A model generated the notes under the pieces. The model made no database searches, had not been told where the DNA came from, and was given only the letters and a program-made list of their open reading frames with translations. Positions 25,646 to 64,000 of a stretch of DNA of 64,000 nt are shown in pieces. The stretch spans positions 1 through 64,000 of the forward strand of contig PCXZ01000032.1 of NCBI GenBank assembly GCA_002762985.1, in the 5' to 3' direction. Source of the DNA: Candidatus Woesearchaeota archaeon CG10_big_fil_rev_8_21_14_0_10_44_13 (GTDB lineage Archaea > Nanobdellota > Nanobdellia > Woesearchaeales > UBA12501). A program made the translations under genes and the position numbers. Numbering within the stretch: the stretch's first letter is position 1; every line of letters begins with the position of its first letter.

Positions 25646-25662
25646 AAAAAGTTTAGAAGAAG

Positions 25663-44271: not shown

Positions 44272-44862
44272 ATGAAGAAACGCATGTCTGTATCCAATTG
44301 CATGAAAAAGGCCAGGAAAGCGCAGATGGAGATGATAGGCATAGCCATAGTTGTCGTCCTTTTGGTCATAGGGATGGCATTTGTCTTCAAGGCCCTTATG
44401 AAGGCGCCGGAAAGGACCCATGAGAAATTCACCAAGGAACAGACTGCACAGAGCATAATCATAGCGATAAGCAATTCTGATGCCGGCTGCAAAGGGGTCG
44501 AGATGAAAGAGCTCATGCAGGACTGCGGAAATAATGTCAACAGCGTTGAGGATTTTGAGCTCGGCCAGTCAGGAAGCATACAATGCGGCAGCACAGACAG
44601 CTGCAGGTACCTCAATAGGTCATTAAAGGTCATATTTGAAGAGACCTTGAAGCTCCAGAGGCTGCCCTACAGGTTCATATTATATAAAACATCCATAGAC
44701 ACGCCGATATTGTATATAGAGGACGGCGGCTGCAACGAATATAACATAAAAGTGATGAGGAAATTTGACACTGGCAAGCCTGGCGAACAGCCTCTTCCGC
44801 TGGATTCAGGTGGCAATGTCTATGCGAGACTTGATATCTGCACATTGGCCGGCAGGATCTGA
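44272..44862 (+). CDS. Pilin-like anchored protein (RKAQ type)
   Basis: 196 residues. The basic head ends in RKAQ (15-18), followed by a hydrophobic helix (about 20-40). The soluble part has seven or so Cys and no recognisable domain. The polar leader is slightly longer than in classic archaellins but similar to others in this run. Last gene before a fresh promoter at 44913. Confidence 0.78.
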   Translation: MKKRMSVSNCMKKARKAQMEMIGIAIVVVLLVIGMAFVFKALMKAPERTHEKFTKEQTAQSIIIAISNSDAGCKGVEMKELMQDCGNNVNSVEDFELGQSGSIQCGSTDSCRYLNRSLKVIFEETLKLQRLPYRFILYKTSIDTPILYIEDGGCNEYNIKVMRKFDTGKPGEQPLPLDSGGNVYARLDICTLAGRI

Positions 44863-48045: not shown

Positions 48046-48942
48046 ATGAAGAATAAAAAATCATTCATTGAGTGGGAAGTGATGAAGATAATACTCATAC
48101 TTTTCTCATTCATATTGCTTTTTGCCTTCCTGTACAGGTTTTACTCCAAGTCTACAGAATTTGCCGGCGAGGAAGCCTGCCATGATTCCCTCGTGCTTAC
48201 GCAGACTCTTGCTGAGAAAGTTGCAACTGGCCAATATCTGAAGCCGTGGCCAGCCACGTGCAAGACAAAAGAAGTAGTGAGCAAAGCCACTGAAATTGAC
48301 CAGGCCAAGAAAGAGCTTGCAGAGAGGATGTCGTGGTGCTGGTGGATGATGGGTGAAGGGGTTATAAAGCCTTTTGACAAGGATTTTTTTGCCGGAGGCA
48401 AAAAATGCTATGTATGTTATACTATGCAGTTCCCTTTCCTGAAAGAACCTGTCAGCAGGCAGGATTTCATGTATTACCTGCAGCAGCAGGGAAAGGAAAA
48501 AATGACTTATTATGATTATCTGAAATATGGCGAAGACAAGGTGATAGAGAGTCCTTTGACTGATCCGATAGACAGCAAGAAGATATATGCAGTGGTATAC
48601 ACATCGCCATCTGATTTCACATTCAATTTCATCCTGACATGCCTGAAGCCTTCTTTAGAGGTCGGTGCTGGCGCTGCAACAACCGGTGCAGTTGTTTGCG
48701 GCACTGCAGGGGCAGTTGTGGCGGGTCCGCCAGGCGCTGCAGCAGGAGTATTATTCTGCGGGCTTACAGGGGCTGTCTGGGGTTCAATAGGCACGTATGC
48801 TTTATGCGCTCCGGCAAGCATAGTCACGCAGATCATTGAAAAGACCAAAGAGGACCTAGTGTATGTGACTGATGTCAACAGGGGGCAGGCAGGCTGCGAA
48901 GGCACATGGTACAAAGGTGTAGGAGAGGTCCAGACAGCATAG
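48046..48942 (+). CDS. Pilin-like protein with CWWMMGEG motif (copy 2)
   Basis: 298 residues, paralogue of the 46899 product. Shared blocks in the same order are the hydrophobic helix (about 13-32), PWPATCKTKE, MSWCWWMMGEG, PFDKDFFAGGKKCYVCY, QFPFLKEPVSRQDF, YYDYLKYGEDKVIE and IYAVVYTSPSD. The C-terminal hydrophobic Gly/Ala-rich segment is longer and more repetitive (about 200-255) than in copy 1. The leader has KKSF in place of KKAM. Function unknown. Confidence 0.8.
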   Translation: MKNKKSFIEWEVMKIILILFSFILLFAFLYRFYSKSTEFAGEEACHDSLVLTQTLAEKVATGQYLKPWPATCKTKEVVSKATEIDQAKKELAERMSWCWWMMGEGVIKPFDKDFFAGGKKCYVCYTMQFPFLKEPVSRQDFMYYLQQQGKEKMTYYDYLKYGEDKVIESPLTDPIDSKKIYAVVYTSPSDFTFNFILTCLKPSLEVGAGAATTGAVVCGTAGAVVAGPPGAAAGVLFCGLTGAVWGSIGTYALCAPASIVTQIIEKTKEDLVYVTDVNRGQAGCEGTWYKGVGEVQTA

Positions 48943-50676: not shown

Positions 50677-51612
50677 ATGAAGAAAAAAGCGCTTATAGGC
50701 TTCGTAGTCGTGCTTGTGCTGACGCTTACCTTGGCAGGGCTCACTATGTACAAGGTTGCAGAGATATTCGGCCTGCATCAGACCCAGAAGGCCATGGATT
50801 CCTTCTATAGATTTGTATATAAGGTGAATGACAGCTCTGTCAGGCCTGTAGGGACAAAGGAATCAACTGCATTATACGTCGATGAGAAGAGCACCATACT
50901 GGGTTTCAGCAAGAATTCCAAAGAGATTTTCATCCCAACGGGCATAAACCATCACAGCCCCCGGCCCCCCGAATGCATTGCGGGAAATGCGTGCATATGC
51001 CTCTGCAGGGATTATGACTGGAGGATAGACTTCAGTAAATATGAGTATTATTTCGGCATGGAATTCCTGCCGATAAGGTGCAGGGAAAGCTTCATCTGCG
51101 AAAATTTTCAAGATTTTGATTTCCCCCAGAAGATGACAAAAGAGGATTTCGGGATGGATATAGAGATGGAAGGGGGATTCATAATCGCAAGGAACTTCAT
51201 GCTCGGAGACCAGAAGATAGAGGCAAGATTGACAGGAATCTACATAACAAATGAAGCGCCCGGCCTTGTGAGCGTTTCATACAATGTGGAAGGGGTCTCA
51301 AAGGAAACCCTGCAGAGGCAGAACGAGAGGGATGAGACCGGAAAAATGATGTGGGAGGCGAATACTGCTTTCACGAACAAGCAATGGGATACAGCCATAC
51401 AGAAATATGATGAGATCATAAGCAAAGGTTATCTTAGCTATCTTTCAGAAGGCTCCAAGGAGCAGGTATACCTATTCAGGGCAATGTGCTATTACAACAA
51501 GCATGACAGGGAGAATACATTAGAGGCAATGGATGAAGCCTTGAACCACACAGAAGATGACACATTAAAGAAGATGATAAGGGAGAAAATGGCTGAAGCA
51601 GAGACATGGTAA
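50677..51612 (+). CDS. Membrane-anchored protein with C-terminal TPR-like repeats
   Basis: 311 residues. One N-terminal hydrophobic helix (about 5-24) is followed by a domain with paired Cys (CIAGNACICLC, RCRESFICENF). The C-terminal 90 residues are helical, with TPR-like spacing (MWEANTAFTNKQWDTAIQKY and YLFRAMCYYNKHDRENTLEA). TPRs usually hold protein partners, so this may be an assembly or scaffold component. It is the last gene before the 51781 regulator, which lies after a 168-bp AT-rich gap. Confidence 0.76.
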   Translation: MKKKALIGFVVVLVLTLTLAGLTMYKVAEIFGLHQTQKAMDSFYRFVYKVNDSSVRPVGTKESTALYVDEKSTILGFSKNSKEIFIPTGINHHSPRPPECIAGNACICLCRDYDWRIDFSKYEYYFGMEFLPIRCRESFICENFQDFDFPQKMTKEDFGMDIEMEGGFIIARNFMLGDQKIEARLTGIYITNEAPGLVSVSYNVEGVSKETLQRQNERDETGKMMWEANTAFTNKQWDTAIQKYDEIISKGYLSYLSEGSKEQVYLFRAMCYYNKHDRENTLEAMDEALNHTEDDTLKKMIREKMAEAETW

Positions 51613-51692: not shown

Positions 51693-51782
51693 TATAGAAC
51701 AATTGTATTTTTAATAACATAACTTACATTTTATATATAAAATAGTAAACTATATATAGAACAAATGTTTTATATATAAAAT
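51693..51782 (+). promoter_or_regulatory. Repeat-rich promoter/operator of the 51781 regulator
   Basis: Two kinds of site alternate. TATAGAACAA(T/A)TGT is at 51693 and 51755, 62 bp apart. TTTTATATATAAAAT is at 51729-51743 and again at 51768-51782, 39 bp apart, the second copy including the first two bases of the ATG. The first copy is part of a 16-bp perfect palindrome and could be the TATA box. The second would place a bound protein over the start codon. This looks like autorepression. Confidence 0.55.
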
Positions 51783-52194
51783 GCTTGAAAAGTATGCCTT
51801 GTGGAAGGTCATTGAAGTTCTTGTAAAAGGGGAAGAGGAATATTCTGTAAGGCAGATGTCAAGGACTGCAGGCATAGGCGCAGGGACTGCAAAAGCGTGC
51901 CTTGATTACATGCATGAAAACGGGATTATAAAGAAGAAAGTGATAGGCAATATCTACCAATATTCCCTGGATCTTGCGAATCCTGCTGCAAGGCAGATAA
52001 AGAATGCGTATTTCGCAAAGGAATTGCTCCAGAAGGCCGGCCCTAAGACATGGATCTGCTCCAATGAGAAAGAGGTTGTCGTTGTCACGACAATGGAATC
52101 GTTGAAGATTGAGGGGATAAGAATCATAAAAACAAATGAGCATGATTTCGAAAGCCTGAAAAAAAGCTATCTCGACATAATCACGATAAGATGA
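51781..52194 (+). CDS. Winged-helix transcriptional regulator
   Basis: 137 residues with an N-terminal winged helix (about 5-62: YSVRQMSRTAGIGAGTAKAC, NGIIKKKVIGNIYQYSL) and a short alpha/beta C-terminal domain (EVVVVTTMESL). The wHTH parallels that of the 28665 product, but this protein is shorter. The ATG is flush with an AT-rich repeat, so the leader is very short. It probably represses itself and the following wall-hydrolase genes. Confidence 0.8.
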   Translation: MLEKYALWKVIEVLVKGEEEYSVRQMSRTAGIGAGTAKACLDYMHENGIIKKKVIGNIYQYSLDLANPAARQIKNAYFAKELLQKAGPKTWICSNEKEVVVVTTMESLKIEGIRIIKTNEHDFESLKKSYLDIITIR

Positions 52195-52277: not shown

Positions 52278-53513
52278 ATGAAAATAAAAAAGAGGCATGG
52301 AAAGAGAACAGTTACTTCTAGTCTTGAGACTGGCACAAGTAGAAGTGGGGCATATAATATGCATTCCTCCAGGATAAGATATAAAAAAGCGATGGAATCC
52401 ACAACCATGGTCTTTTATTATGCGGCCTGCCTTTTTTTCGCTTTTTTCGTCATATTCACATATATGAGGATAGCTTACACTGGCGCAAAAAGCACTAAAT
52501 TCAATATGGAATTCTTTGTGAATGATGTCGGATTGATGACTGATTCATTATCTGCTGTCCCTGGCGACGTTGACTACGATTATAAAAAAAGCCCGTCCAA
52601 GTTCATATTCGATTTCAGGGAGAGTGCCCTCTACGTCTATACTCCTATCGAGACCGCTAATGTAAAACTAAACAAAGAGGGCATAAGCGACACATGGTCT
52701 TCATATAACCTGTTGTTCGAGGCAGGGAAGCCGTTTGTCAAAAAATTCACTTTCCCGCCGATAATCTCGTTCAGGAAAAAGGGCAGCATGCTTGAAATAT
52801 CCTCTTCAGGTGTGTTCAATGACAGGGAATTCTGCCCCATCATGGATACCTATTCGGACTTGAAACAGGCCAATATAACTATAGAACCCGGCCATTATAT
52901 GTCAGAGCCTGGCTATGTGAGCGGAAACCAGAAAGAGTTCCAGCTCACAGAAGCGATAGCAGAAAGCATAGCTGTGCTGTGCAGGAGCCATTCGATGAAC
53001 TGCAAGATACTCAGACAGGGCACTATGGCTGAAAAGGTTGCAGAGATGAACACAGAACCCAAGCCGAATATGGCCATAAGCCTGCATATAGGGGATTACC
53101 AGAATCCTGATGACAACCCATTCAGGGCAATGTATATCTTCAGCTCTTCAAAAAGCGAGAAGCTCGCGTGCCTCATATCGAACAAGTTCAGGGAGGATTA
53201 CATCGTCCTGGAGAGCGAGAAGATAGTCCCATTGCTGAAATATTCCCAGGATTATGCCTCGATCTTATCTGAAAATGCGCCTTCAGTTGTCCTTGAGATC
53301 GGCAACATCAGGAATATTATGGGCTTCGACCAGGACGAGGACATAAACAAGATTGCTGCGATAATAGTGAGCGGCATCGAGGAATACTACAAGAAAGAGG
53401 CAGTCAGCGCTGAAGGGGAAGAGGAATTCGAGGAGCTGAATAAGGAGATGAAAGGCGCTAAGGAAATGCCTGCAGATGGCGACAAGAGCAAGGTGAAGGT
53501 CATTACAAGGTAG
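52278..53513 (+). CDS. Anchored Amidase_3-like protein, catalytic residues kept
   Basis: 411 residues. KKAM (37-40) precedes a hydrophobic helix (about 45-63), the prepilin-like layout of the block. The region 199-370 has the order of an N-acetylmuramoyl-L-alanine amidase of the Amidase_3 type: IEPGHY (H206), QKEFQLTEA (E220), SLHIGD (H270) and VVLEIGN (E340), matching the zinc ligands and catalytic Glu, although the wider sequence is divergent. It could cut the amide between MurNAc and L-Ala, or a similar bond. The end is acidic/lysine-rich. Divergence makes real activity uncertain. Confidence 0.7.
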   Translation: MKIKKRHGKRTVTSSLETGTSRSGAYNMHSSRIRYKKAMESTTMVFYYAACLFFAFFVIFTYMRIAYTGAKSTKFNMEFFVNDVGLMTDSLSAVPGDVDYDYKKSPSKFIFDFRESALYVYTPIETANVKLNKEGISDTWSSYNLLFEAGKPFVKKFTFPPIISFRKKGSMLEISSSGVFNDREFCPIMDTYSDLKQANITIEPGHYMSEPGYVSGNQKEFQLTEAIAESIAVLCRSHSMNCKILRQGTMAEKVAEMNTEPKPNMAISLHIGDYQNPDDNPFRAMYIFSSSKSEKLACLISNKFREDYIVLESEKIVPLLKYSQDYASILSENAPSVVLEIGNIRNIMGFDQDEDINKIAAIIVSGIEEYYKKEAVSAEGEEEFEELNKEMKGAKEMPADGDKSKVKVITR

Positions 53514-53570
53514 AATCCAAGAAGGATTATCAAAAGCAATTATCCAAAAAAATACAAAACATGAGAGAGG

Positions 53571-54407
53571 ATGCAGCAAAAGATGCGACAAAAAAACATG
53601 AGATTTGTGAAAATCTGCATATTCATGGTAATTGCGGCCCTGCCTTCGCTAGCCAATGCAGCGATATATGGGGATGAAGCGTTTGTAGATGGCTTCGTGA
53701 CTGACCAGAGGCTTGTTGATTCTGTTGATAGTTTCCTGGAAACGACAAACACGACTCTTGCGCTTGCTGTGCTAAACAACACGGAGGATATTGCTGCTGA
53801 TGCTGAATTTTACTATAACCTGAGCAAGGCTGACATCACAATAGTGTATGATTTCGGCGATAATAAGATAGCGATAGCGAAGCCGAGGGAGAGGGAGGTA
53901 TTGAGCGACCAGAAGATAAACCAGCTGCTTGACGGCAGGCAGAGCCAAAAGACATTCATTGTCGACGCAGGTGATGCGAACTTATACCTCCTGAATCTTG
54001 TTGAAGACATCAAGACAGAGCTGAGATCCGGCGAGAAGATATATGGTGTGTGTTCCATAATAAAAGACGGCTACTGCAATGAGAGCTGTTATGACGACCT
54101 TGACTGCGATTGCGGCAACGGCATATGCGAGTACCATGAGAATTACATAACCTGCCAGAAAGACTGCAAGAAGACGTCTGAGTATGGCTGTGCGATATTG
54201 AGCGACAATTACTGCGATAAGAACTGCCCATTGACGGACATAGACTGCAGTTTCGGGAGCCTCAGTGAGAAGACATTCGATATCGCAAAAAAGAAAAGGA
54301 CGACTGCCGTAGTGCTGCAGGCTGTTATCGGGGCCCTGTTGTTCATGCTTGTCGTCATACTGATATATGTGCTTGAAAAAAATAAAGGATTCAAAAAACC
54401 GCAATGA
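53571..54407 (+). CDS. Signal peptide/TM protein with Cys-rich juxtamembrane region
   Basis: 278 residues. Signal peptide (about 10-31), an alpha/beta domain resembling in outline TPM-like extracellular domains (about 40-150), then a Cys-rich part with CYDDLDCDCGNGIC and CPLTDIDC repeats, one transmembrane helix (about 247-268) and a short basic tail. The Cx(n)DxDC repeats resemble those in the 57624 product, so these two may be partners. No enzyme motif seen. Confidence 0.78.
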   Translation: MQQKMRQKNMRFVKICIFMVIAALPSLANAAIYGDEAFVDGFVTDQRLVDSVDSFLETTNTTLALAVLNNTEDIAADAEFYYNLSKADITIVYDFGDNKIAIAKPREREVLSDQKINQLLDGRQSQKTFIVDAGDANLYLLNLVEDIKTELRSGEKIYGVCSIIKDGYCNESCYDDLDCDCGNGICEYHENYITCQKDCKKTSEYGCAILSDNYCDKNCPLTDIDCSFGSLSEKTFDIAKKKRTTAVVLQAVIGALLFMLVVILIYVLEKNKGFKKPQ

Positions 54408-54414
54408 TGGATGG

Positions 54415-54921
54415 ATGAAATATATGAGAAGTGTATGGAAATCAAAAAGAGGGGAGGGAGAGGAAAGGACGCAAGAGGCACCAAACTACTCGATATATTT
54501 CCTGATAGTCGCGATCATAGTCCCATTATTCGCTATCTTCCTTGTCATTGCGACATCCTCATACAGTGTTGAAACTACAAGCATACTCGGAAACCTTGAA
54601 AGCGCCGTGGTAGGGTTCAGGATATTGAATTCGCCAGAATGCTTCGTCTATCAGGATGAGGCTACAAAAAGGACATACCCCCACACGATAGAACTGAAGA
54701 AATGCACGCCTGAAAGGCTTGAAGCCTGCATGGGCAATATGTCGGGAGTATGCTTCAAGTCCCAGATAAAAGTCGGAGGGGAGGTAATGAAAGAGCTGCA
54801 GAGCAGGAATTACAGGAGGCCATCTGAGATAAAGGTGAGCGTTTGGCCGATAAAGGCCAAGGATGAGGGCGAAGAGAGGCAGGGATTCATGATCATAAGC
54901 ACGAGCAAGCAATGCGGTTGA
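54415..54921 (+). CDS. Anchored pilin-like protein
   Basis: 168 residues from the ATG at 54415; a GTG at 54367 would overlap the preceding gene by 41 nt. A basic head (with KRGE at 11-14) leads to a hydrophobic helix (about 25-48), then a small domain with four Cys. It is not recognised. The stop overlaps the next gene's start by 10 nt, so translation is probably coupled. Confidence 0.72.
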   Translation: MKYMRSVWKSKRGEGEERTQEAPNYSIYFLIVAIIVPLFAIFLVIATSSYSVETTSILGNLESAVVGFRILNSPECFVYQDEATKRTYPHTIELKKCTPERLEACMGNMSGVCFKSQIKVGGEVMKELQSRNYRRPSEIKVSVWPIKAKDEGEERQGFMIISTSKQCG

Positions 54922-55514
54922 GCCCCCACTGGAATTTGGCTGAAAAGATGGCTGAAAAGAATTTGATTGAAAAGCTGAAGATGGACATAAGGAAATCAAA
55001 AAAAGGAGTAGTGCACACATGGTTTGATTATGTATTCGCGATAGTCGGAGGCATAGTAATATTCGTGATAATATTCTTTGTGACTACATCGGGCACAGCA
55101 AGGGTCGAGAATGAGATAAAGGCCCAGGAATTCGATATAAGGTCTGATGAGACGCTTGTGTTTTACCTCTCAACTTGCCTCAGCAAAGGCCAGATCAATG
55201 ATCTCTTGTTCAATAATGAGAGGTTTAAGGTAGCAGAACAGCTTGCAGGCTCAAAAACGACATTTGCCGACCTGATAATTGCCATAGGCGAGAATGATGA
55301 TGAGGATTACAAGGAGATATTGAGGGCCCAGACAGAATACCTGCTTAATACGACTCTTGGGAATGAGAAATGGAAGCTTGATATAAGATATCCTGGTGGG
55401 GAGGAACTTTCGTTCGGGGGATTGAAGGGCGAGACAAGGGTTTTTGAGCTAAGGCTGCCTTCAACAGGCTATCAGATGATAAATGTCAAATTGACCGCAA
55501 AAAAGGAGAAATGA
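54912..55514 (+). CDS. Anchored pilin-like protein (KKGV type)
   Basis: 200 residues (an internal Met at 54948 is an alternative start). SKKGV (29-33) precedes a hydrophobic helix (about 38-58) and a helical/beta soluble domain of unknown type (DETLVFYLSTCLSKGQINDL). It overlaps the previous gene by 10 nt and precedes the wall-hydrolase fusion gene by 17 bp. Confidence 0.74.
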   Translation: MRLSPHWNLAEKMAEKNLIEKLKMDIRKSKKGVVHTWFDYVFAIVGGIVIFVIIFFVTTSGTARVENEIKAQEFDIRSDETLVFYLSTCLSKGQINDLLFNNERFKVAEQLAGSKTTFADLIIAIGENDDEDYKEILRAQTEYLLNTTLGNEKWKLDIRYPGGEELSFGGLKGETRVFELRLPSTGYQMINVKLTAKKEK

Positions 55515-55530
55515 AAGAGGATCCAGATAA

Positions 55531-57639
55531 ATGGCCCAGATAAGATATTTCAGGAGCATTAGGAAAAACTGCATGAGGAAGGACAGGAGAGGGGCAATGC
55601 TGCTCTATCTCGCAACAATAGGTCTCCTTATAGCATCATTCACGTTCCTTACGCTGAAAGTCATGGAGAAGCCTGCAAAATGGGAGCCCAAGTATGTCGG
55701 TGAGCACCAGCTTGCATTGCTTAAGACTGCAATAAATGCAGATAAATTCCTACTGTTCATAGACCAGGCCTCGAAGCCGACTGCGATGCAGTCCATCTAT
55801 AACCTGGCTCAGAAAGGGGGTTTCCCTGCCGGCTCAGAATGCGGGCAGTACATTGGCTACCAGAAATGGAGGACTTTCTCGAAGGACAGTAATGAGATGA
55901 AAAACTGCATCCCTGATGAAAGCACGATAAAATATGATATATCGTATGCCTTTAATAACGAGCTCTATAAATACCTCAATGTTTACTGGGGCTACCAGAA
56001 ACAGAATGCCATGGCTGTTAATGCCGGATCAGGGGATCTGGCAGGAAAAACGGTCATATTGGACCCCGGCCATGGAGAAGGGTATAGCGGTCCATCAGGC
56101 GCAAGCGGCGAGCAGGAAGCCACCCATGCGATCTCTGCGAAACTCAAGATGCTGCTTGAGCAGAAAGGGGCCATAGTCTATGAAACACCTTCAGCTTATG
56201 GGATGACTGAGAGGGCAAATTTTGCGAATGAGAAGAAGGGAGATATATTGGTTTCTATACATTTTAATGGTGTTTCTGATGTGAATACTGCCGGCCTTGA
56301 GGCTTTCTATGGCGCTGAGAACAGCGGGACAGCAGACGGCAGCCCTGAAAAAGATAAGGTTCTTTGCGAGAATATCATCCCAAAAGTGAAGGATGTAATC
56401 AGCAGCGAGCTTAGGGGAGGAGGCATAAAGCCTGACACTGGCACTGACGTCGGCTCGCTGTCAAACCTGAGGAAGACAAACATGCCCGCATGCCTCATAG
56501 AGATGGAATTCATATCCGCGAAAAAAAGCATAAAATTCAACAACAAGGAATATGGCAATTACAAGGATCTTTTCCGGAGCGAAGATTACCAGAATGCTGC
56601 GGCAAATGCACTGAAAGAAGGCATAATAAATTATTTCAGTGCTGTCGGAAACCTGCAGCCAGAGCCAAAAAAACCTGAACCCTCCTTGGTGGCAAGCAGC
56701 GGGATGGAACAGACAACGACATCTGCGATTCAGGGCCTTATGAAAACAGAGAATGATGAGTATATCACGGGGACGCCTGTCATGGTGCCTTATGCTGCCC
56801 CTCAGCAGGCCATCAATCTGCCATTGGGCGTTTTAGGCAAGATGCCTCCTGACAACTATGAGGTGAATCTTGAGCAGAAGGACAAGCTGAAGATAATGGG
56901 GATTGCCAAAGACAAGGCAGAATTCGACATAGTATTGGGTGAGATAAAGAGAAAAAGCGTAGCAAAGATGATTTCAGAGGGTGTTGAAGGCGGGATAAGG
57001 AATCTCGTTGATATAGGGGGATGCAGCATAGATTCGCCTCAGACAGACAGCCAGTCTATAGGCAATGCCAATGTCGGGAGGCTTGAGAATGGTGTGAAGG
57101 TTCCAGATGAAGGGACATATTATCTTATCGATCCTCCTGCAAGGGGCAGAGGAAGCAATTATGCCACTAATGAGCTTTACATAGGCCTGCAGAAGACAGG
57201 ATGCGTTCTTATGAAGAATTACAATGTAAAGCTGATATTCAGGGATATGAGCAAACAAGGAGGCGGAAAGCTTGGGAAACATCTATCGCATACAAGCGGA
57301 AGGGATGTTGACATGGGTTTTGTATGTATTAAGGATGAAAAAAGGTTCCCCTGCTACAGGAATGTCGTCCAAGGCGGCGGAGTAGTGCCTGAATTTGACC
57401 CTGCGGGGAACTGGCTGCTCATGAAGACTGTGTTTGATACAGTTGAAGTCGATCATGTCTTCCTTAACAGATATATAATAAAATTAATCATGGACTGGGC
57501 AGAGGCGAATGAGCCTGACAAAATTGCTGTTGAAAAGGTAAAAAAAATACTTGAGAGGGATGAGCTTGCAAATCACGTAACTCATTATCATCTCAGGATA
57601 AAATGCCCTGAAGGAGACGCACAATGCAGGATAGACTAA
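55531..57639 (+). CDS. Amidase_3 plus MepA (peptidase M74) fusion, murein-hydrolase-like
   Basis: 702 residues. RRGA (19-22) precedes a hydrophobic helix (24-44), then a linker and an Amidase_3 domain (about 172-370): ILDPGHGEGYSG (H181), E196, SIHFNG (H244) and CLIEMEF (E324). A Pro/Ser-rich linker leads to a C-terminal domain (about 510-700) with the M74 MepA signature: GKHLSHTSGRDVDM (H584, H587, D594) and THYHLRIKCP (H685, H687). In bacteria the first cleaves MurNAc-L-Ala and the second cross-linking peptide bonds. I see no pseudomurein-specific features. It overlaps the next gene by 16 nt. Confidence 0.86.
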   Translation: MAQIRYFRSIRKNCMRKDRRGAMLLYLATIGLLIASFTFLTLKVMEKPAKWEPKYVGEHQLALLKTAINADKFLLFIDQASKPTAMQSIYNLAQKGGFPAGSECGQYIGYQKWRTFSKDSNEMKNCIPDESTIKYDISYAFNNELYKYLNVYWGYQKQNAMAVNAGSGDLAGKTVILDPGHGEGYSGPSGASGEQEATHAISAKLKMLLEQKGAIVYETPSAYGMTERANFANEKKGDILVSIHFNGVSDVNTAGLEAFYGAENSGTADGSPEKDKVLCENIIPKVKDVISSELRGGGIKPDTGTDVGSLSNLRKTNMPACLIEMEFISAKKSIKFNNKEYGNYKDLFRSEDYQNAAANALKEGIINYFSAVGNLQPEPKKPEPSLVASSGMEQTTTSAIQGLMKTENDEYITGTPVMVPYAAPQQAINLPLGVLGKMPPDNYEVNLEQKDKLKIMGIAKDKAEFDIVLGEIKRKSVAKMISEGVEGGIRNLVDIGGCSIDSPQTDSQSIGNANVGRLENGVKVPDEGTYYLIDPPARGRGSNYATNELYIGLQKTGCVLMKNYNVKLIFRDMSKQGGGKLGKHLSHTSGRDVDMGFVCIKDEKRFPCYRNVVQGGGVVPEFDPAGNWLLMKTVFDTVEVDHVFLNRYIIKLIMDWAEANEPDKIAVEKVKKILERDELANHVTHYHLRIKCPEGDAQCRID

Positions 57640-58976
57640 GATTTGTGAAAAAAATATGGATTTTAGCGGTTGTGTTATTGCTAGCCTGCGCAATAGCCTC
57701 CGCATATGAGGTCACTGAAGATGAGAAGATGATGCTCTTTTTCATAGATGACAAGATGGAACTGAATGATGTGAAAGTCATAAGAGACAACGCTTTCTAC
57801 AGGCAGGCAAGCGGATACGAAAGCATGTTTGACATCCTTGACGATATCCCTGAGAATGGAAGGTATATCGAGCTTCTCGATAAGGATGGCGAAGTTGTCT
57901 ATGATTTCAAGTTTTTCATGGATTTCGGTCTTCCTTACAATGAGGAAGTGAGCAAAATAAGGGTTTACAATGGCCTAACTAAGGACAGCCCTGTGCTGAT
58001 TGAGAAGGACATAAGCTTCTGCAATCACAACAATGTCTGCGAGCCATGCGAGGGCATCGGTTGCAGCATAATGGAAAGCTCTGTCACCTGCAGCGACTGC
58101 AGGACAGGAAGCAAGGACAGCTATTGCGACCTTAAAAAAGATGGTGTGTGCGACCCGGACTGCAATAACATCGACATGGACTGTCCTGGATGCACAGACG
58201 GAAAATGCTATTATGATGATTCGATGGACGAGGTGAACATGTGCCCCGGCTTCGGAGGGGAGGTCTGCAGGAGCATGGAGGAATGCGCAGGAGAGATTAC
58301 AGGCGGCAATGATGATGGTTTCTGCTGCATTGGCAATTGCGTTGATCCGACTGTTGAAGAAGAGTATATCCCTCAAGAGCCCGGGACGCCAGAGGAGATC
58401 GCTTTTACAGGGGGTTCTGATTACCAGGGCCAGGATATCGAGGAGATAAACGATCCTGTCCGGCTGTTCAATATGAATTATAACAGCTCGATTCCCGTTG
58501 AGGATGAATCGAAGAAGATCCTCTGCAGCAATGTCGGGAAATCCGTATGCGGGATGTTTGAGAGATGCATCAATGGGCAGAATGTCTACTCAGACGATGA
58601 AGGGGGCAACTGCTGCACAGGAGATTGTGCTCCTTTGAGCGATGATGAGTTCAATAAGGCTTACAAGGATGAATTCGGCGAGGATTACAGCAAGGCTGCA
58701 GGAATCAAGCCAACAACCACTGCAGAAGAAGGGATTGCTCCTGCCCTGGAGGCTGAGCAGATAAGCCAATGGTGGTTCCTGCTGGCGATAATCCCTCTTG
58801 TCGTGATAATACTCATTTATGATGCCGAAAGGAAGAAAAGCGAGGAAAAAAAGAGAAGGGTAGATTATGAATATGGCTATTATAAGAATTATGGCTATAA
58901 TGACGACCAGATAAAACAGATACTCGTCCAGAGGGGATGGAAAAAGAAGGACATAAGGAAGGTAATAAAGAAGTAG
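57624..58976 (+). CDS. Signal peptide/TM protein with Cys-rich repeats
   Basis: 450 residues. Signal peptide (1-27), an N-terminal alpha/beta domain, Cys-rich segments (near 132-245 and 295-335, including CDLKKDGVCDPDC, DDGFCCIGNC and GGNCCTGDC), an acidic linker, a transmembrane helix (about 384-402) and a basic C-terminal tail that ends in a small helical region (YNDDQIKQILVQRGWKKKDI), perhaps a UBA-like three-helix fold. The start lies within the end of the preceding gene (16 nt overlap), so they are coupled. Confidence 0.78.
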   Translation: MQDRLRFVKKIWILAVVLLLACAIASAYEVTEDEKMMLFFIDDKMELNDVKVIRDNAFYRQASGYESMFDILDDIPENGRYIELLDKDGEVVYDFKFFMDFGLPYNEEVSKIRVYNGLTKDSPVLIEKDISFCNHNNVCEPCEGIGCSIMESSVTCSDCRTGSKDSYCDLKKDGVCDPDCNNIDMDCPGCTDGKCYYDDSMDEVNMCPGFGGEVCRSMEECAGEITGGNDDGFCCIGNCVDPTVEEEYIPQEPGTPEEIAFTGGSDYQGQDIEEINDPVRLFNMNYNSSIPVEDESKKILCSNVGKSVCGMFERCINGQNVYSDDEGGNCCTGDCAPLSDDEFNKAYKDEFGEDYSKAAGIKPTTTAEEGIAPALEAEQISQWWFLLAIIPLVVIILIYDAERKKSEEKKRRVDYEYGYYKNYGYNDDQIKQILVQRGWKKKDIRKVIKK

Positions 58977-59006
58977 TTTAGGATAATATGTGTTGTGTAG
59001 GTTCAA

Positions 59007-62000
59007 ATGACTTCAAAAGGCAGATCAAGGATAATGTGCAGGTTTTTGCTAGCTTTAGTCCTTTTTTCATTGGTATCTTCGCCTGTTCTCGCTGCTGAAA
59101 CAACGCAGGACAAGGGTGTGCTGCAGCAGCCGGATGATAAAAACCAGCAAAGCCAGCAGGCGCCTGCGAGTCAGCAATCCGGCTTCAGGTTCATAGTCCT
59201 GAGCGATGCGAACCCGAGCTATGGCACAGAAGGATTGAATTCCAAATTCCCTGATGACCTTAAGGGCATACCGGGGCTGAATCCTGTATTTGTGATACAT
59301 GCTGGGGATATGATAGGGGGAGGTAATCCTTATAGCATGGAAAAATATGATAAGATGTGGGTTCCGTTCTTCGAAGCAATAAAAGCCATAACTGCTGCGA
59401 GGATACCTTATCTGCCCTGCCCCGGCAATCATGATGCCGGCTTTGGTGTCAAGACTGCAAAAGAGTCTTACGGCAAGAATTGGCTTGCGAACAAGCCATC
59501 TGTCTCAACGAGCGGAAACTATCCTTATTATTATTCGTTCGATTACAGCAACAATCATTTCATAATACTTGACAGCTCGAACATAAAGCTTGGCTCAACG
59601 CAGATACAATGGCTTTCGGATGATCTTGCGAATGCAAAAAACAAGGATAACACATTTGTGATTCTGCATATACCTTTCATGTCATCAGGCATGCTCCATC
59701 CTGAGACTGCTGATAAGTCTGCCCTTGATATCATATCCAATGCCGGCGTAAAATACGTGTTTGCCGCCCATAACCATGTCTATCGCGAGCATGATTACCA
59801 GAATGTGAAACAGATAACTATAGGGAGTGCGGCAGACGACCCGAGGGGAGAGAAAGATAATATGTTTGTTGTTGTTGATGTCATGGGCAAGGATGATGTT
59901 AAGATTTACCCTGCAGGCCTCAAGTCAGGATTCAAGAATACTATTGATGGACAGCCAATACCCTCTGCGCCTGCAGGCTCTGTGCCGTCATTTGACCCTG
60001 CTTCAGTCATCGGCACAAACTGCGTGCCAGGACAGAACGATTTCTCTTCCTTGCTTTCAGGTGAGGGCATTTCATATGAAAGCTATCCTTACAAAGGCGG
60101 GATTTTCCATTCAATGACCATAGATCCTAGTAGGTATGATGTCGTGCTGATAAATGCAAAGAAAGCCACAGGAAAATCTTCAGCGACTCTTGCCGAGATA
60201 CTAAGGAACACCCCCGGGGCGATAGCCGCCATCAATGGGGGATTTTTTGAAGGGGGGGGAAAGCCTACAAATTCAATTGTAGTTGATAATGAACTGATAA
60301 ATGGTGTTTACGACAAGTTCCACACTACGTTCGTGAACGAAAACGGAAAATATAAAGTGATCACTCTTTCGCAGCTTCTTTCCTACAGCCCTGAAAAGAT
60401 AAGAAACGAAGTGAAATCTGCGGTCACTGCCTTAGGTCTTGTCTCGAATGGGAATAATGTCGGCAAATCAGGCGACAGGGCGCCGCGTTCTGGAGTATGC
60501 ATAACAAAGGACGGCCTTATCAAGTTTTTGGCGAGCAATGGCATACAAAAAGGCAGCAGTTTAGTAGGAGGATATGCCTCAATAGGGGAATTCGCCCAGG
60601 AAGCAATAGACAGGCATGGGTGCTTAGACGGAGTAAATCTTGATGGAGGAGGGTCTACATCAGTAGAATACCACATAAATGGCAAAGATGTGTCTTTACT
60701 TGGGGAGAGAAATGCTGCACTCTGCAGGGGATCAGACCAAGAATTCCCATGCCAAAGGCCTGTTGGTGATGCTTTGGTTATTTTGCCTAAACAGGGCATG
60801 AAAGGGCCTGCTACAAAATCCTTGCCTAATATTGCAGGCTCTGCGCCCGCTGCAACAATTACTTCGGCTTTCACTGCTGTTGATGATATAACTGGGATGG
60901 CTGCTGCACAGCCTTCCTCAGTATATTCTGCAGACCTGTCAGGAAGCCTGAATACAATAACGATAAGCTCCCCTGATTATTTACAGATAAGAAGCGCTTA
61001 TGAGCTGACAGGACAGGAACTGGCAACACCAAAAACCGTGCTTGACAAGGCGAATGAGAAAGGGGGCCAGATTGTAGCTGTGACTAACGGTGCTTTCTTC
61101 GGCTACAGCAATCTGAATGGGAAAGACAGGGGAAGCACTAATGCCGGGCCGACATGTCTCTATATAGAGAATGGAAGGCAATTCTTCCCTTATGAATATC
61201 CTGATGACAAGAAGAATCCTGATTTCCTGTGCAAAAACCGCAATGAGTTCTATATAACAAATAAGAATGAGGCAGGCATATTGCCTTACGGCCAGTTCGA
61301 AAGCAAATTCTCGGGCAACAATTATGCAGAGATAAAATATGCGATCCAGGGCGTCAATATACTGTATGATAATAATATAGTAACAGAATACCCTAAAGAT
61401 ATAGAGTTCACTTTCCATGGCGGGAAGAAAGAGAGGAATGGGATATGCATAACAAATGACAACAAGATAATCCTGTTCGTGAATACCGACAAGATAGGGC
61501 TGATAGATCTTGCCACAAAGCTCAAGAACGAGCTGGGTTGCAGGCATGCGATAAACACTGATGGTGGCGCGACATCCTCGATGTATGTCAAAAACGAGGA
61601 TTATTATTTCAAAAGCTTCTCTGATGACACAGCCCAGAATAAGGTCTGCAGCACAGTCAAATCGGCAAGCGATTTCGTCAGACAGTCGAATGGAAGGACG
61701 CAGGGGCATGGCTGTGCATTGAATTTCTTCCTTGTTTCAGAATCAAAAACTGCAGTCACTGGAAGCCCTTTAATCAGTTTTGCGGCTCCGACAGAGCAGA
61801 TAGGATGCATCTGCCAGGATAGCATAGAAAGCTCTGTCATAGCCGTGCCCTCATCAAACACTGCTGTCAGCCAGGGGCAGTCTGCTGTCACTGGCGCTGC
61901 TGCAGAAACTAAAGACAAGCCGGATATAGGGTATGATTTCTCCGGCATAGACAGGGGTTACCAGGGATTCGGGGCAAAAAAAGACCTCTCAAAGATATCC

Positions 62001-63317
62001 AAATTCGAGCCATATATACAGGAAGCTAGCCAGAAATTCGGTGTTCCTGCTGAATTCATAAAAGGGGTAATAATGACCGAATCAGATGGGAAAACCAAGC
62101 CCTCTTCGACAAAAGCAGGAGGAAAATTATGCGACAGCTCAGGCATGTGCTTATGCAATTCAGCAAGCTATTGCGGGCTCATGCAGACCGGCCATTTCAG
62201 CGATAAATGCGACTCCTCTTATGAATGCAATTGGGATAATTTCCAGAAAGGTGATGAAGGGGCAAGAGACCAGATATTTTCAGGGACTAATTTCATAAAA
62301 ACATTGATGTCTGACAAGAGGTTGGGCTCTCCTGAAAGCCCGGATTATTTCTACTGGATCGCCGCAGGATATAATGGTGGGGCAGGATCCTCTGCCATGA
62401 TAAGGGAATCAGCTGCTGAGAGGCTTGGGATCCCTCCGGAAAGGGTGCAGTGGAAAGACGTGACAATAGAGGATTCAAAAAAGAACCAGGAGAAAAATTT
62501 CCCAACCCGCCCAGGCAAGACAGAAGAGATATTCTACTATGCTTCAAAAGTGATGTCCATTGTGCAGGCGGCTGCCGGAGGCATGAGCCAGGCCATGCAG
62601 CAGACAATCGCCCAGAAATGCCAATACAGCCAGGTCTATGATTATACAAGCATAGGCAAATACTACATAAACCCCTCTTTTACAGTCGATGTGGATTATA
62701 ACATTAATCATTACAAGCTCATCTCAGATGCAGTCAAGGGCCTCATCTCTGAATGCAGCAAAAAGGACTCTGACGACCTGAGAGAATGCATAAAGGAAGG
62801 AGTGGATGACGCTGGCGGGATTGATGAAGGGAATCTGAACCTGTACAATGGGCCGTGCGATTATGCAGAGAATATGATGAGCGATTTTGCAGAATGGACT
62901 GATGCGTGCCTGGAATCAAGCAGCGACAACTGCATATGTGAGATCCCTCTTGAGTATGAATATGAAAAAGAGAACACTGATGAGGAAGTCACGATAGAGG
63001 CTTCTGGCTCTGGCACGATACAGATAACCGGCGCAGGGCAGACCCAGTCTTTGACCGGATCTGTTGTCGGGAGCAAGAAGATAATGACAAAAAGCGGCGC
63101 AGAATCGCATTATGCAAAGAAAACAGGCAGGATCATAGAATTTGTAGACAGCTCAGGCGGGGCCAAATGCAGGATGGATAAAAGGACCTATAAATTCTGC
63201 GCAGAGACAAAGAACCTCTATATGATATATGATGAAAAACAGAAAAAACTGGCCCTCATGCCCATACAGTACAAGTTTGCTGTCGACTTCTCTGAGCAGG
63301 CCGCTGCAAGCCCATAA
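59007..63317 (+). CDS. Secreted metallophosphoesterase, two NAGPA-like domains and lytic-transglycosylase-like domain
   Basis: 1436 residues. Signal peptide (about 1-30). Calcineurin-like phosphoesterase (60-300): SDANPSYG (D67), HAGD (D101), GNHD (N141), H221, AHNH (255-257). Two phosphodiester-glycosidase (NAGPA/DUF2233) domains: about 355-595 (AAINGGFF, RAPRSGVCI, NLDGGGSTS) and about 640-910 (VTNGAFFG, RNGICIT, NTDGGATSS). SLT-type lytic transglycosylase (about 1000-1185): MTESDGKT (E1025), YCGLMQTG, AAGYNGGAG. The last 235 residues are Cys-containing and unidentified. No C-terminal anchor. Together these would act on phosphodiester-linked sugars and a murein-type glycan. The fusion is unusual. 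Confidence 0.85.
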   Translation: MTSKGRSRIMCRFLLALVLFSLVSSPVLAAETTQDKGVLQQPDDKNQQSQQAPASQQSGFRFIVLSDANPSYGTEGLNSKFPDDLKGIPGLNPVFVIHAGDMIGGGNPYSMEKYDKMWVPFFEAIKAITAARIPYLPCPGNHDAGFGVKTAKESYGKNWLANKPSVSTSGNYPYYYSFDYSNNHFIILDSSNIKLGSTQIQWLSDDLANAKNKDNTFVILHIPFMSSGMLHPETADKSALDIISNAGVKYVFAAHNHVYREHDYQNVKQITIGSAADDPRGEKDNMFVVVDVMGKDDVKIYPAGLKSGFKNTIDGQPIPSAPAGSVPSFDPASVIGTNCVPGQNDFSSLLSGEGISYESYPYKGGIFHSMTIDPSRYDVVLINAKKATGKSSATLAEILRNTPGAIAAINGGFFEGGGKPTNSIVVDNELINGVYDKFHTTFVNENGKYKVITLSQLLSYSPEKIRNEVKSAVTALGLVSNGNNVGKSGDRAPRSGVCITKDGLIKFLASNGIQKGSSLVGGYASIGEFAQEAIDRHGCLDGVNLDGGGSTSVEYHINGKDVSLLGERNAALCRGSDQEFPCQRPVGDALVILPKQGMKGPATKSLPNIAGSAPAATITSAFTAVDDITGMAAAQPSSVYSADLSGSLNTITISSPDYLQIRSAYELTGQELATPKTVLDKANEKGGQIVAVTNGAFFGYSNLNGKDRGSTNAGPTCLYIENGRQFFPYEYPDDKKNPDFLCKNRNEFYITNKNEAGILPYGQFESKFSGNNYAEIKYAIQGVNILYDNNIVTEYPKDIEFTFHGGKKERNGICITNDNKIILFVNTDKIGLIDLATKLKNELGCRHAINTDGGATSSMYVKNEDYYFKSFSDDTAQNKVCSTVKSASDFVRQSNGRTQGHGCALNFFLVSESKTAVTGSPLISFAAPTEQIGCICQDSIESSVIAVPSSNTAVSQGQSAVTGAAAETKDKPDIGYDFSGIDRGYQGFGAKKDLSKISKFEPYIQEASQKFGVPAEFIKGVIMTESDGKTKPSSTKAGGKLCDSSGMCLCNSASYCGLMQTGHFSDKCDSSYECNWDNFQKGDEGARDQIFSGTNFIKTLMSDKRLGSPESPDYFYWIAAGYNGGAGSSAMIRESAAERLGIPPERVQWKDVTIEDSKKNQEKNFPTRPGKTEEIFYYASKVMSIVQAAAGGMSQAMQQTIAQKCQYSQVYDYTSIGKYYINPSFTVDVDYNINHYKLISDAVKGLISECSKKDSDDLRECIKEGVDDAGGIDEGNLNLYNGPCDYAENMMSDFAEWTDACLESSSDNCICEIPLEYEYEKENTDEEVTIEASGSGTIQITGAGQTQSLTGSVVGSKKIMTKSGAESHYAKKTGRIIEFVDSSGGAKCRMDKRTYKFCAETKNLYMIYDEKQKKLALMPIQYKFAVDFSEQAAASP

Positions 63318-63428: not shown

Positions 63429-64000
63429 ATGAACATTCCTTATGATATGGTTGTGGAAAAAATAAAAGAGAAAGGGCTGAGCGATGAGGAGATAAGCCTG
63501 AAGATAAAGCAGAAGATGGACCAGCTTTCGGGGCTTATATCAAAGGAAGGGGCAGCGCACATAATCGCAAATGAGCTTGGGATAAAGCTTGTTGACCAGG
63601 CTTCTGGCAGACTGAAGATAAAGAACCTTCTTATGGGCATGAGGAATGTCGAGATAGTAGGAAGGGTGCAGGAGATTTATGAGGCACGTGAATTCAAGAC
63701 AGAGACAAGGACGGGCAAGGTCGGCTCATTGATATTGGGTGATGAGACCGGGACAGTAAGATTGGTCCTTTGGGGCGGCCAGGCCGATAAGATGAAAGAG
63801 ATAAACAAGGGGGATGTCGTGCAGATCGAAGCCGGCTATGTGAAACAGAACAACAACAGGATGGAAGTCCATCTTGGCGACAGGGGGAACATGAAGATAA
63901 ACCCTGAAGGCGAGAAGATTGCTGAAGTGAAGAAGGCTGAAGCAAAAAGAAAAAGCATCTCTGAGCTTAAGGAAGGGGATATAGATGTCGAGCTCTTTGG
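63429..64000 (+). CDS. Archaeal RPA-type single-stranded DNA-binding protein, N-terminal part
   Basis: 190 codons are visible and the gene runs off the window. The N-terminal helical region (ISLKIKQKMDQLSGLISKEG then AAHIIANELGI, about 22-53) is typical of archaeal replication factor A proteins. It is followed by an OB fold (about 68-165: NVEIVGRVQEIYEAREF, GSLILGDETGTVRLVLWGG, GDVVQIEAGYV). A second OB fold probably starts near the edge. It binds single-stranded DNA in replication and repair. Housekeeping content resumes here after the surface block. Confidence 0.9.
   Translation, partial: MNIPYDMVVEKIKEKGLSDEEISLKIKQKMDQLSGLISKEGAAHIIANELGIKLVDQASGRLKIKNLLMGMRNVEIVGRVQEIYEAREFKTETRTGKVGSLILGDETGTVRLVLWGGQADKMKEINKGDVVQIEAGYVKQNNNRMEVHLGDRGNMKINPEGEKIAEVKKAEAKRKSISELKEGDIDVELF

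Follow-up and report, generated by a model that had tools for sequence, protein, structure and literature searches.

The window analysed here, a stretch of 64,000 nt from contig PCXZ01000032.1 (GCA_002762985.1), comes from a Woesearchaeota (DPANN) archaeon, whose genome is called the source genome below. It carries an operon encoding about ten pilin-like proteins, in which two large proteins with enzyme domains precede an OB-fold gene. The relevant features are as follows, with coordinates, strand, assignment and its basis.

44272-44862, +, pilin-like protein (RKAQMEMIGIAIVVVLLVIGMAF), operon-conserved (locus comparison)
48046-48942, +, conserved pilin-like operon protein (locus comparison)
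50677-51612, +, pilin-like protein (class III-like signal KKALI)
52278-53513, +, pilin-like protein with an Amidase_3 domain (41.2 bits)
53571-54407, +, Cys-rich protein with a Sec signal and a C-terminal TM, operon-conserved (sequence and locus comparison)
54367-54921, +, small conserved pilin-like operon protein, single TM (locus comparison)
54912-55514, +, small pilin-like protein (class III-like signal KKGVV)
55531-57639, +, A1-bearing protein, 702 aa (A1, Amidase_3 and Peptidase_M74 behind the class III-like signal RRGAM)
55585-56007, +, A1, pilin-like module at the N-terminus, constant (TM helix, then a long helix, the CGxYxGYxxW loop and a helix)
56053-56628, +, Amidase_3 domain of the A1-bearing protein (89.8 bits)
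57055-57630, +, Peptidase_M74 (MepA-type endopeptidase) domain of the A1-bearing protein (47.6 bits)
57624-58976, +, Cys-rich type I membrane protein with a Sec signal, conserved between the A1 and A2 genes
59007-63317, +, secreted multi-enzyme protein, 1436 aa (signal peptide, metallophosphoesterase, two NAGPA domains, SLT, A2)
59007-59096, +, probable Sec-type signal peptide region (MCRFLLALVLFSLVSSPVLA-AET from Met10; by inspection of the sequence)
59187-59783, +, metallophosphoesterase domain, residues 61-259 (Metallophos, 54.3 bits)
60039-60821, +, first NAGPA domain region, residues 345-605 (NGGFF and NLDGGGSTS intact)
60924-61826, +, second NAGPA domain region, residues 640-940 (signature deviates: NTDGGATSS)
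61959-62606, +, SLT/GH23-like lytic transglycosylase domain, about residues 985-1200 (profile, phmmer and model)
62079-62081, +, codon of E1025, the proposed catalytic glutamate (motif; model residue 71)
62652-63314, +, A2, Cys-rich constant module without a Pfam family (residues 1216-1436)
63429-64000, +, OB-fold (RPA-like) gene, continuing past the window end (syntenic marker downstream of the slot)

The 59007 protein is encoded by a single uninterrupted ORF with zero internal stops. The first-pass annotation had described it as a secreted 1436-residue protein of four units, and the motifs were found at the positions claimed: GNHD at 140, AHNH at 254, DGGGSTS at 546, DGGATSS at 852, E1025, GLMQ at 1057 and YNGG at 1122. 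All four catalytic units are thus present, but the architecture is incomplete as described, since residues 1216-1436 form an additional conserved module that had been overlooked. The signal, judged by inspection, is Sec-type and not class III, which suggests that the protein is exported. An NCBIfam scan of the protein returned only one chance 12-bit match, and no recognisable cell-wall-binding or peptidoglycan-binding domain was found by Pfam in this or in the 55531 protein. An assembly error or artefact as the origin of the fusion was ruled out by the equivalent locus of a genome from another family (L172:10713-14552), where Metallophos (67 bits), SLT (25 bits) and NAGPA (47 bits) also occur in one protein.

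Calcineurin-like metallophosphoesterases are characterised by the motifs DxH, GDxxD, GNHD, H and GHxH. In the present domain motif I reads SDAN instead of DxH and the last motif is AHNH, while the other metal motifs are largely retained; the L172 relative has SDTH, GNHD and GHDH. The NAGPA family profile matched two stretches of the protein (128.8 bits). Both domains match by sequence the NAGPA/DUF2233 phosphodiester glycosidases (5h3k Slr0280, 3ohg and NAGPA 6pky), although, unlike in that family, they are combined here with SLT and metallophosphoesterase domains in one archaeal protein.

The profile searches thus bore out the NAGPA and metallophosphoesterase assignments, whereas the SLT domain scored only 14.8 bits in hmmscan (residues 1003-1067; cut-off 21.3). 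The same stretch reached 20 bits in a whole-genome profile search and 22.4 bits together with its frame neighbours. A phmmer search with residues 976-1200 retrieved proteins bearing strong SLT domains (L060, 1.3e-5; L082, 2.2e-5). Structure prediction, which had been proposed as a check on E1025, agreed with the assignment. The best PDB matches of the AF2 model were MltC, MltE and MltF, with goose lysozyme also found, and E1025 (model residue 71) lies at the end of helix 61-72. As modelled, the region is a lysozyme-like fold with a Glu at a helix end and with the GLMQ and YNGG motifs. The earlier proposal of a secreted archaeal enzyme acting on a bacterial wall is supported by the domain calls, this model, the L172 relative and the phmmer matches. 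Its suggested mode of action, removal of decorations followed by strand cleavage, is more speculative, as motif I of the metallophosphoesterase and the second NAGPA signature deviate.

The idea of a stand-alone fusion enzyme did not hold, as the protein belongs to a conserved pilin-like operon in which the hydrolases are exchangeable. Using a regular-expression test, class III-like signals were detected in 335 of 663 operon ORFs versus 36 of 707 control ORFs (Fisher p 7e-88). The operon ends with the A1 protein, just upstream of the OB-fold gene. A1 was found in 279 of the 353 genomes of the order Woesearchaeales, nearly always in single copy. The downstream neighbours (the OB gene, a YdjM-type membrane protein, a small protein and RadA) are fixed, in sister orders too. 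Relatives of the 57624 protein are also present at L027, L171 and L172. A2, about the last 220 residues of the 59007 protein, is an undescribed module that is common to hydrolase proteins across the order. Of the 68 named loci that could be tested, 62 have A1 and/or A2 upstream of the OB gene, 56 of them at a distance of 300 bp or less; the two modules are fused in one gene at 24 loci, occupy two genes at 16, and A1 occurs alone at 18. Because A1 and A2 are one gene in 24 loci, the proteins that carry them probably form one complex. The predicted fold of A1 had no match in the PDB and differs from a classic pilin head, and a PDB sequence search with A1 gave only chance antibody matches. Outside the order, A1 proteins are mostly 235-300 aa long, too short for a payload.

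In Woesearchaeota, the slot between A1 and A2 can be occupied by nearly any type of bacterial wall hydrolase: SLT, M23, Amidase_2/3, VanY/M15, M74, NlpC/P60, phage lysozyme, VgrG3-type and 3D domains. Among 74 A1 proteins searched with Pfam, the matches were SLT (14), VanY (9), M15 (9), M23 (6) and Amidase_2 (4), followed by Amidase_3, M74 and NlpC/P60 (two each) and by single cases of phage lysozyme, VgrG3-like, 3D, C39 and glucosaminidase domains. Proteins with A2 only add NAGPA, SLT, Amidase_2, M23 and others. Many A1 proteins were without a recognised hydrolase, and several were without any Pfam match. When hydrolase types were placed on a tree of the OB protein from 32 loci, at least 14 changes of type were counted, with exchanges even inside 100/100 clades. 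At the present locus two proteins share the payload, with an amidase and an endopeptidase in the 55531 protein and the phosphoesterase, two phosphodiester glycosidases and lytic transglycosylase in the 59007 protein. Three restrictions of the payload were considered and ruled out. The SLT domains of the order are not confined to the A1/A2 locus, as most lie elsewhere in the genomes; payloads are not confined to the A1 gene, as they also occur in the 52278 protein and its relatives (L171:9278-11890); and they are not confined to the Woesearchaeales, as an M15-like domain lies on another pilin-like protein in L168, which is from a sister order.

A candidate assembly machine was found through sister-order loci. 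A pair of an ATPase and a putative platform lies directly upstream of the pilin-like operon in L169 and L179, and a putative platform gene lies upstream in L168 and L165. In the source genome the pair (L177) is on another contig, and its linkage to the operon is seen only in the sister orders. The ATPase scored above the cut-off of the T2SSE profile, and its own profile matched afGspE (2oap) at 1.7e-30, and also CpaF and FlaI; by sequence it belongs to the GspE/TadA/FlaI-type assembly family. The adjoining protein (766 aa, multi-TM) resembles T2SSF weakly (hhalign probability 48%, E 1.9e-4), and its relatives in L168 and L169 had no PF00482 match. It may be a platform of the GspF/TadC type, and the pair would assemble the operon's proteins. 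An ordinary archaeal type IV pilus (TadC-type, PF00482) was rejected as the sole machine, because at least 13 high-quality A1 genomes (the 13 listed) have no PF00482 match. The divergent pair, which is also present in two genomes without such a match (G018 and G006), offers an explanation for them. The prepilin peptidase of the source genome is a Peptidase_A24 (PF01478, at C13); Arc_PepC_II (PF06847), considered for this role, is absent. A profile search of this genome, which is 98% complete, gave no match to a Mur ligase (Mur_ligase_M) or a PBP transpeptidase.

We give an even chance to the reading that the 59007 protein is exported and serves as a subunit of a type-IV-filament-like machine on the cell surface, where it carries an enzyme cartridge against the bacterial envelope. 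The last pilin-like protein (A1) and its partner A2 would be the constant holders of a swappable peptidoglycan hydrolase payload. The dedicated ATPase-platform pair would assemble the complex or push it out, so that the enzymes reach the wall of a neighbouring bacterium, where they would remove phosphodiester-linked decorations and cut glycan strands and stem peptides. Such a local opening of the wall may allow the archaeon to attach, to feed or to take up cell contents. Somewhat more tentatively, Woesearchaeota, and perhaps the wider class, may possess a dedicated wall-boring machine of the type-IV-filament kind, aimed at bacteria, with an exchangeable hydrolase cartridge on its tip proteins that is re-armed through domain exchange as the bacterial partner changes. 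Several observations speak against the filament model: the Sec signal on the 59007 protein, the deviating metallophosphoesterase motif I and second NAGPA signature, the unmatched A1 fold, the weak T2SSF homology, the machine pair on another contig, the A1 proteins without payload, the location of most SLT domains elsewhere and the lack of a peptidoglycan-binding domain.

The operon bears on the hosts and the contact mechanisms of DPANN archaea. Its near-universal presence in one large order, with bacterial-wall hydrolases on pilin-like proteins, suggests a life on or off bacteria and, if the model is correct, how uncultured archaea without the core enzymes of bacterial wall synthesis could breach bacterial walls. 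The payload type (e.g., M23 versus M15 or amidase) could predict the wall chemistry that each lineage meets. What had been a scattered remark on murein transglycosylases in some Woesearchaeota now has a defined locus, whose parts are named and whose interactions can be tested. The operon is also a source of many natural peptidoglycan hydrolases on one common archaeal carrier.

Enzymes of the phosphoesterase and phosphodiester glycosidase families set free phosphate and sugars. The 59007 and related enzymes could serve nutrient scavenging, in which dead bacterial wall is digested as a source of amino acids, phosphate and sugars, while the pilin-like proteins next to them just anchor them to the cell surface. 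The Sec signal and the SLT proteins scattered elsewhere in many genomes also fit this explanation. It is nevertheless rather unlikely, as it leaves unexplained why many types of wall hydrolase have entered one fixed A1-A2 slot in a pilin-like operon, and why this slot is present as a single copy almost throughout the order. It is unlikely, too, that the filament delivers only contact-dependent or released toxins against competitors, with no feeding or symbiosis. The killing of bacteria by archaeal peptidoglycan hydrolases has been demonstrated (PMC12352652), the switching of hydrolase type resembles arms-race toxins, and one payload is a VgrG3-type domain of type VI spikes; however, near-universal conservation in reduced genomes suggests a lifestyle need, not an optional weapon.

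The linked OB-fold (RPA-like) and RadA genes, part of a constant downstream set that extends to sister orders, could point to a competence-like pseudopilus that opens the bacterial wall to import DNA. We consider this improbable, as these genes may be mere housekeeping neighbours and the payloads consist of wall hydrolases rather than nucleases. Many pilus and secretion systems of bacteria carry a hydrolase for passage through their own wall. By this analogy the enzymes might act on the archaeon's own surface polymer, for filament passage or envelope remodelling. Such a role is very improbable given the missing Mur ligase and PBP transpeptidase matches; moreover, the payload type differs between close relatives, so the own polymer would have to change too.

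The filament model can be compared with earlier descriptions. Large murein-like lytic transglycosylase proteins of Pacearchaeota and Woesearchaeota (fam00969; Castelle et al. 2021, PMC8204110) and 'vampiristic' Woesearchaeota (Vigneron et al. 2022, PMC9723730) have been reported. In their available portions, these accounts share with the present system the SLT-type domain, large extracellular proteins, the lineage and a proposed action on bacterial walls. The same portions do not contain the pilin-like operon, the A1/A2 modules, the exchange of hydrolase class or the NAGPA, phosphoesterase, amidase and endopeptidase payloads. Modular peptidoglycan hydrolases of archaea, in which Nanoarchaeota were named as rich, include haloarchaeal M23 enzymes shown to kill bacteria (Strock et al. 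2025, PMC12352652). These are likewise archaeal and secreted with bacterial-type catalytic domains, but combine a catalytic with a peptidoglycan-binding domain and were found by homology, whereas here pilin-like and new Cys-rich constant modules occur in an operon of filament type. The type IV pili of archaea (Makarova et al. 2016, PMC4858521) share the GspE/TadA-type ATPase, putative platform, prepilin peptidase and class III-like signals; transglycosylase or peptidoglycan is nowhere mentioned in that census, whereas in the present operon wall hydrolases are borne by pilin-like subunits. Archaeal murein transglycosylases of large size were thus already known, and no description of the pilin operon with its exchange slot was found.

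VgrG3-type evolved spikes of the T6SS and tail lysozymes are cases of a wall hydrolase carried on a delivery structure. The present system shares this arrangement with them, and one Woesearchaeota payload is a VgrG3-like C-terminal domain. Unlike in the T6SS, no contractile sheath or spike genes were seen here, and the carrier is a pilin-like protein.

The first-pass annotation had described the product of 59007-63317 as one secreted protein combining a metallophosphoesterase, two NAGPA-like domains and a lytic-transglycosylase (SLT) domain. The single intact protein stands: the open reading frame is genuine and unbroken (1436 aa), and a Pfam scan placed Metallophos at residues 61-259 (54.3 bits) and NAGPA over two stretches (128.8 bits summed). 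SLT was the weakest of the domain calls and was therefore given separate tests. Its score was 14.8 bits in the plain Pfam scan against a cut-off of 21.3, and 20 bits in the genome search (22.4 with frame neighbours), which is barely at the cut-off. Residues 976-1200 matched, by phmmer, the relatives' loci L060 (1.3e-5) and L082 (2.2e-5), both bearing strong SLT domains (64.5 bits in L060). An AlphaFold2 model of residues 955-1436, in which pLDDT was near 90 for the majority of the SLT helices and low in one loop region, had MltC, MltE, MltF and goose lysozyme as its best structural matches. The SLT assignment is thus weak by profile score but favoured by relatives and the predicted Mlt-type fold, and the model places E1025 at the end of a helix, a predicted position that agrees with GH23.

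An artefactual fusion was ruled out, since Metallophos, SLT and NAGPA also share one protein at the equivalent location in L172, a locus from another family of the same order. Two signatures deviate: metallophosphoesterase motif I reads SDAN, not DxH (SDTH is kept in L172; the motif is degenerate in L027, another relative), and the second NAGPA signature reads DGGATSS.

When the whole protein was compared with 60 relatives, matches fell mainly on residues 1211-1436 and few on the enzyme domains. This C-terminal module, A2, is Cys-rich and conserved in the alignment, and no Pfam family matched it. Proteins bearing A2 otherwise hold very diverse wall hydrolases (Amidase_2, SLT, M23, 3D), and giant A2 proteins hold Amidase_3, C39, VanY, glucosaminidase, NlpC/P60, NAGPA and deacetylase domains. 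In many loci, a second constant module, A1, opens the A2-bearing gene. The TM helix of A1 bears an archaeal class III-like signal and is followed by a long helix, a loop of the form CGxYxGYxxW and a last helix; A1 had no match in the PDB. In the window, the two modules lie in separate nearby genes:
55531-57639, headed by A1 and carrying Amidase_3 and M74
59007-63317, Metallophos, two NAGPA, SLT, then A2
63429-64000, OB-fold gene (RPA-like), continuing past the end of the window

A set of 80 named loci was assembled around the OB-fold gene, and nearly all their records are labelled Candidatus Woesearchaeota or unnamed Nanoarchaeota. L086 is a Woesearchaeota locus on a contig filed as a Candidatus Aminicenantes bacterium MAG, probably through a binning error. 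A1 and/or A2 lay directly upstream of the OB-fold gene in 62 of the 68 loci with sufficient upstream sequence (at 300 bp or less in 56). The modules share one gene in 24 of these 68 loci and are split over two in 16; from the single-gene loci, we infer that the separate A1 and A2 proteins of the window function jointly. A1 was present in 279 of 353 Woesearchaeales genomes (148 of 180 good ones), almost always as a single copy. The only other SLT domain in the window's own genome (G000:C26:29880-30218, L001; 323-aa frame) is not at this slot.

Among 74 A1 proteins, Pfam found SLT (14), VanY (9) and Peptidase_M15 (9), related families in which one protein may score twice, M23 (6), Amidase_2 (4), Amidase_3, M74 and NlpC/P60 (2 each), and phage lysozyme, a VgrG3-like C-terminal domain, DUF2272, 3D, C39 and glucosaminidase (1 each). 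Payload type switches at least 14 times on the OB-protein tree of the 32 loci with a labelled payload, a tree whose deep branches are weakly supported. Switches also occur inside fully supported clades (M23/NlpC, M15/Amidase_2), and these shallow switches stand despite the weak deep branches because they are independent of them. The A1 protein at L176:6134-10573 (the same as L121:5473-9912) combines NlpC/P60 with the VgrG3-like C-terminal domain, which is familiar from type VI secretion spikes; that at L171:5756-7999 carries M74 and a strong PGA_cap match (capsule synthesis, 175.9 bits). At L045:2952-3752, just 3' of the OB and YdjM genes, a 266-aa ORF resembles, by eye, a LAGLIDADG-type homing endonuclease.

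The small proteins encoded in a row upstream of the slot have starts of the form K-[KR]-[GA]-hydrophobic. The class III-like signal, scored with a simple pattern, was found in 335 of the 663 ORFs that precede A1 versus 36 of 707 others, N-terminal TM helices being also commoner in the operon proteins (547/663 versus 202/707). In L169/L179, a 760-aa ATPase and a 725-aa multi-TM protein precede the pilin-like genes, and the latter occupies the same position in L168 and L165. Close relatives of both are found on contig C24 of the own genome (L177) and in two other genomes, G018 and G006, where PF00482 had no match. The ATPase is a T2SSE-family member whose profile retrieves afGspE (1.7e-30), CpaF and FlaI. 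The multi-TM protein shows a weak likeness to T2SSF platforms (hhalign 48%, E 1.9e-4) and, from this match, its position and its topology, is regarded as a putative platform. A prepilin peptidase (PF01478) is present. The protein at 59007-63317 is a visible piece of something larger: a conserved operon that resembles type IV filament systems, has an exchangeable cartridge of wall hydrolases, and whose mechanism we infer. At the start of the gene run 52278-63317, a small HTH-like protein (51781-52194) with a weak DIP2311-like regulator match is a possible operon regulator. Two large proteins at 21815-28098 have MopE-type repeats (Cu-binding) and a PKD-like match and are possibly additional surface proteins.

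Beyond the order, A1 was found in about 77 genomes of the same class, in proteins of mostly 235-300 aa that are too short to hold a payload. The synteny there runs from pilin-like genes through A1, the OB gene and a YdjM-type gene to RadA (L165, L166, L168, L169), RadA lying beyond the stretch covered for L168. At L168:5757-7415 (sister order), an M15/VanY-like domain is present in another pilin-like operon protein, which matched L066 at 8.5e-48 by phmmer; payloads therefore occur beyond the A1 gene and beyond the order.

Castelle et al. (2021, PMC8204110) describe large extracellular murein-like transglycosylases from Pacearchaeota and Woesearchaeota, the longest reaching 3,000 aa; predation was proposed by Vigneron et al. 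(2022, PMC9723730), and killing of bacteria by archaeal hydrolases was shown by Strock et al. (2025, PMC12352652). The archaeal type IV pilus census of 2016 mentions neither transglycosylase nor peptidoglycan, and searches within open-licence papers yielded no description of the operon of pilin-like genes, of modules A1 and A2 or of payload exchange.

The Mur ligase middle domain and the PBP transpeptidase had no match in the archaeon's own genome (98.5% complete), which makes peptidoglycan synthesis by this organism unlikely. The predicted enzymes against the glycan strand, the stem peptide and the amide bond, encoded together in one operon, therefore most likely act on bacteria. The operon may serve attachment, feeding, killing or DNA uptake, the last being retained because the RadA and OB neighbours are constant. 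PBP-type transpeptidase or Mur-ligase-type genes occur in a few relatives (G019 C1:1062871-1063686, G006 C3:119547-120416, G014 C2 and C7).
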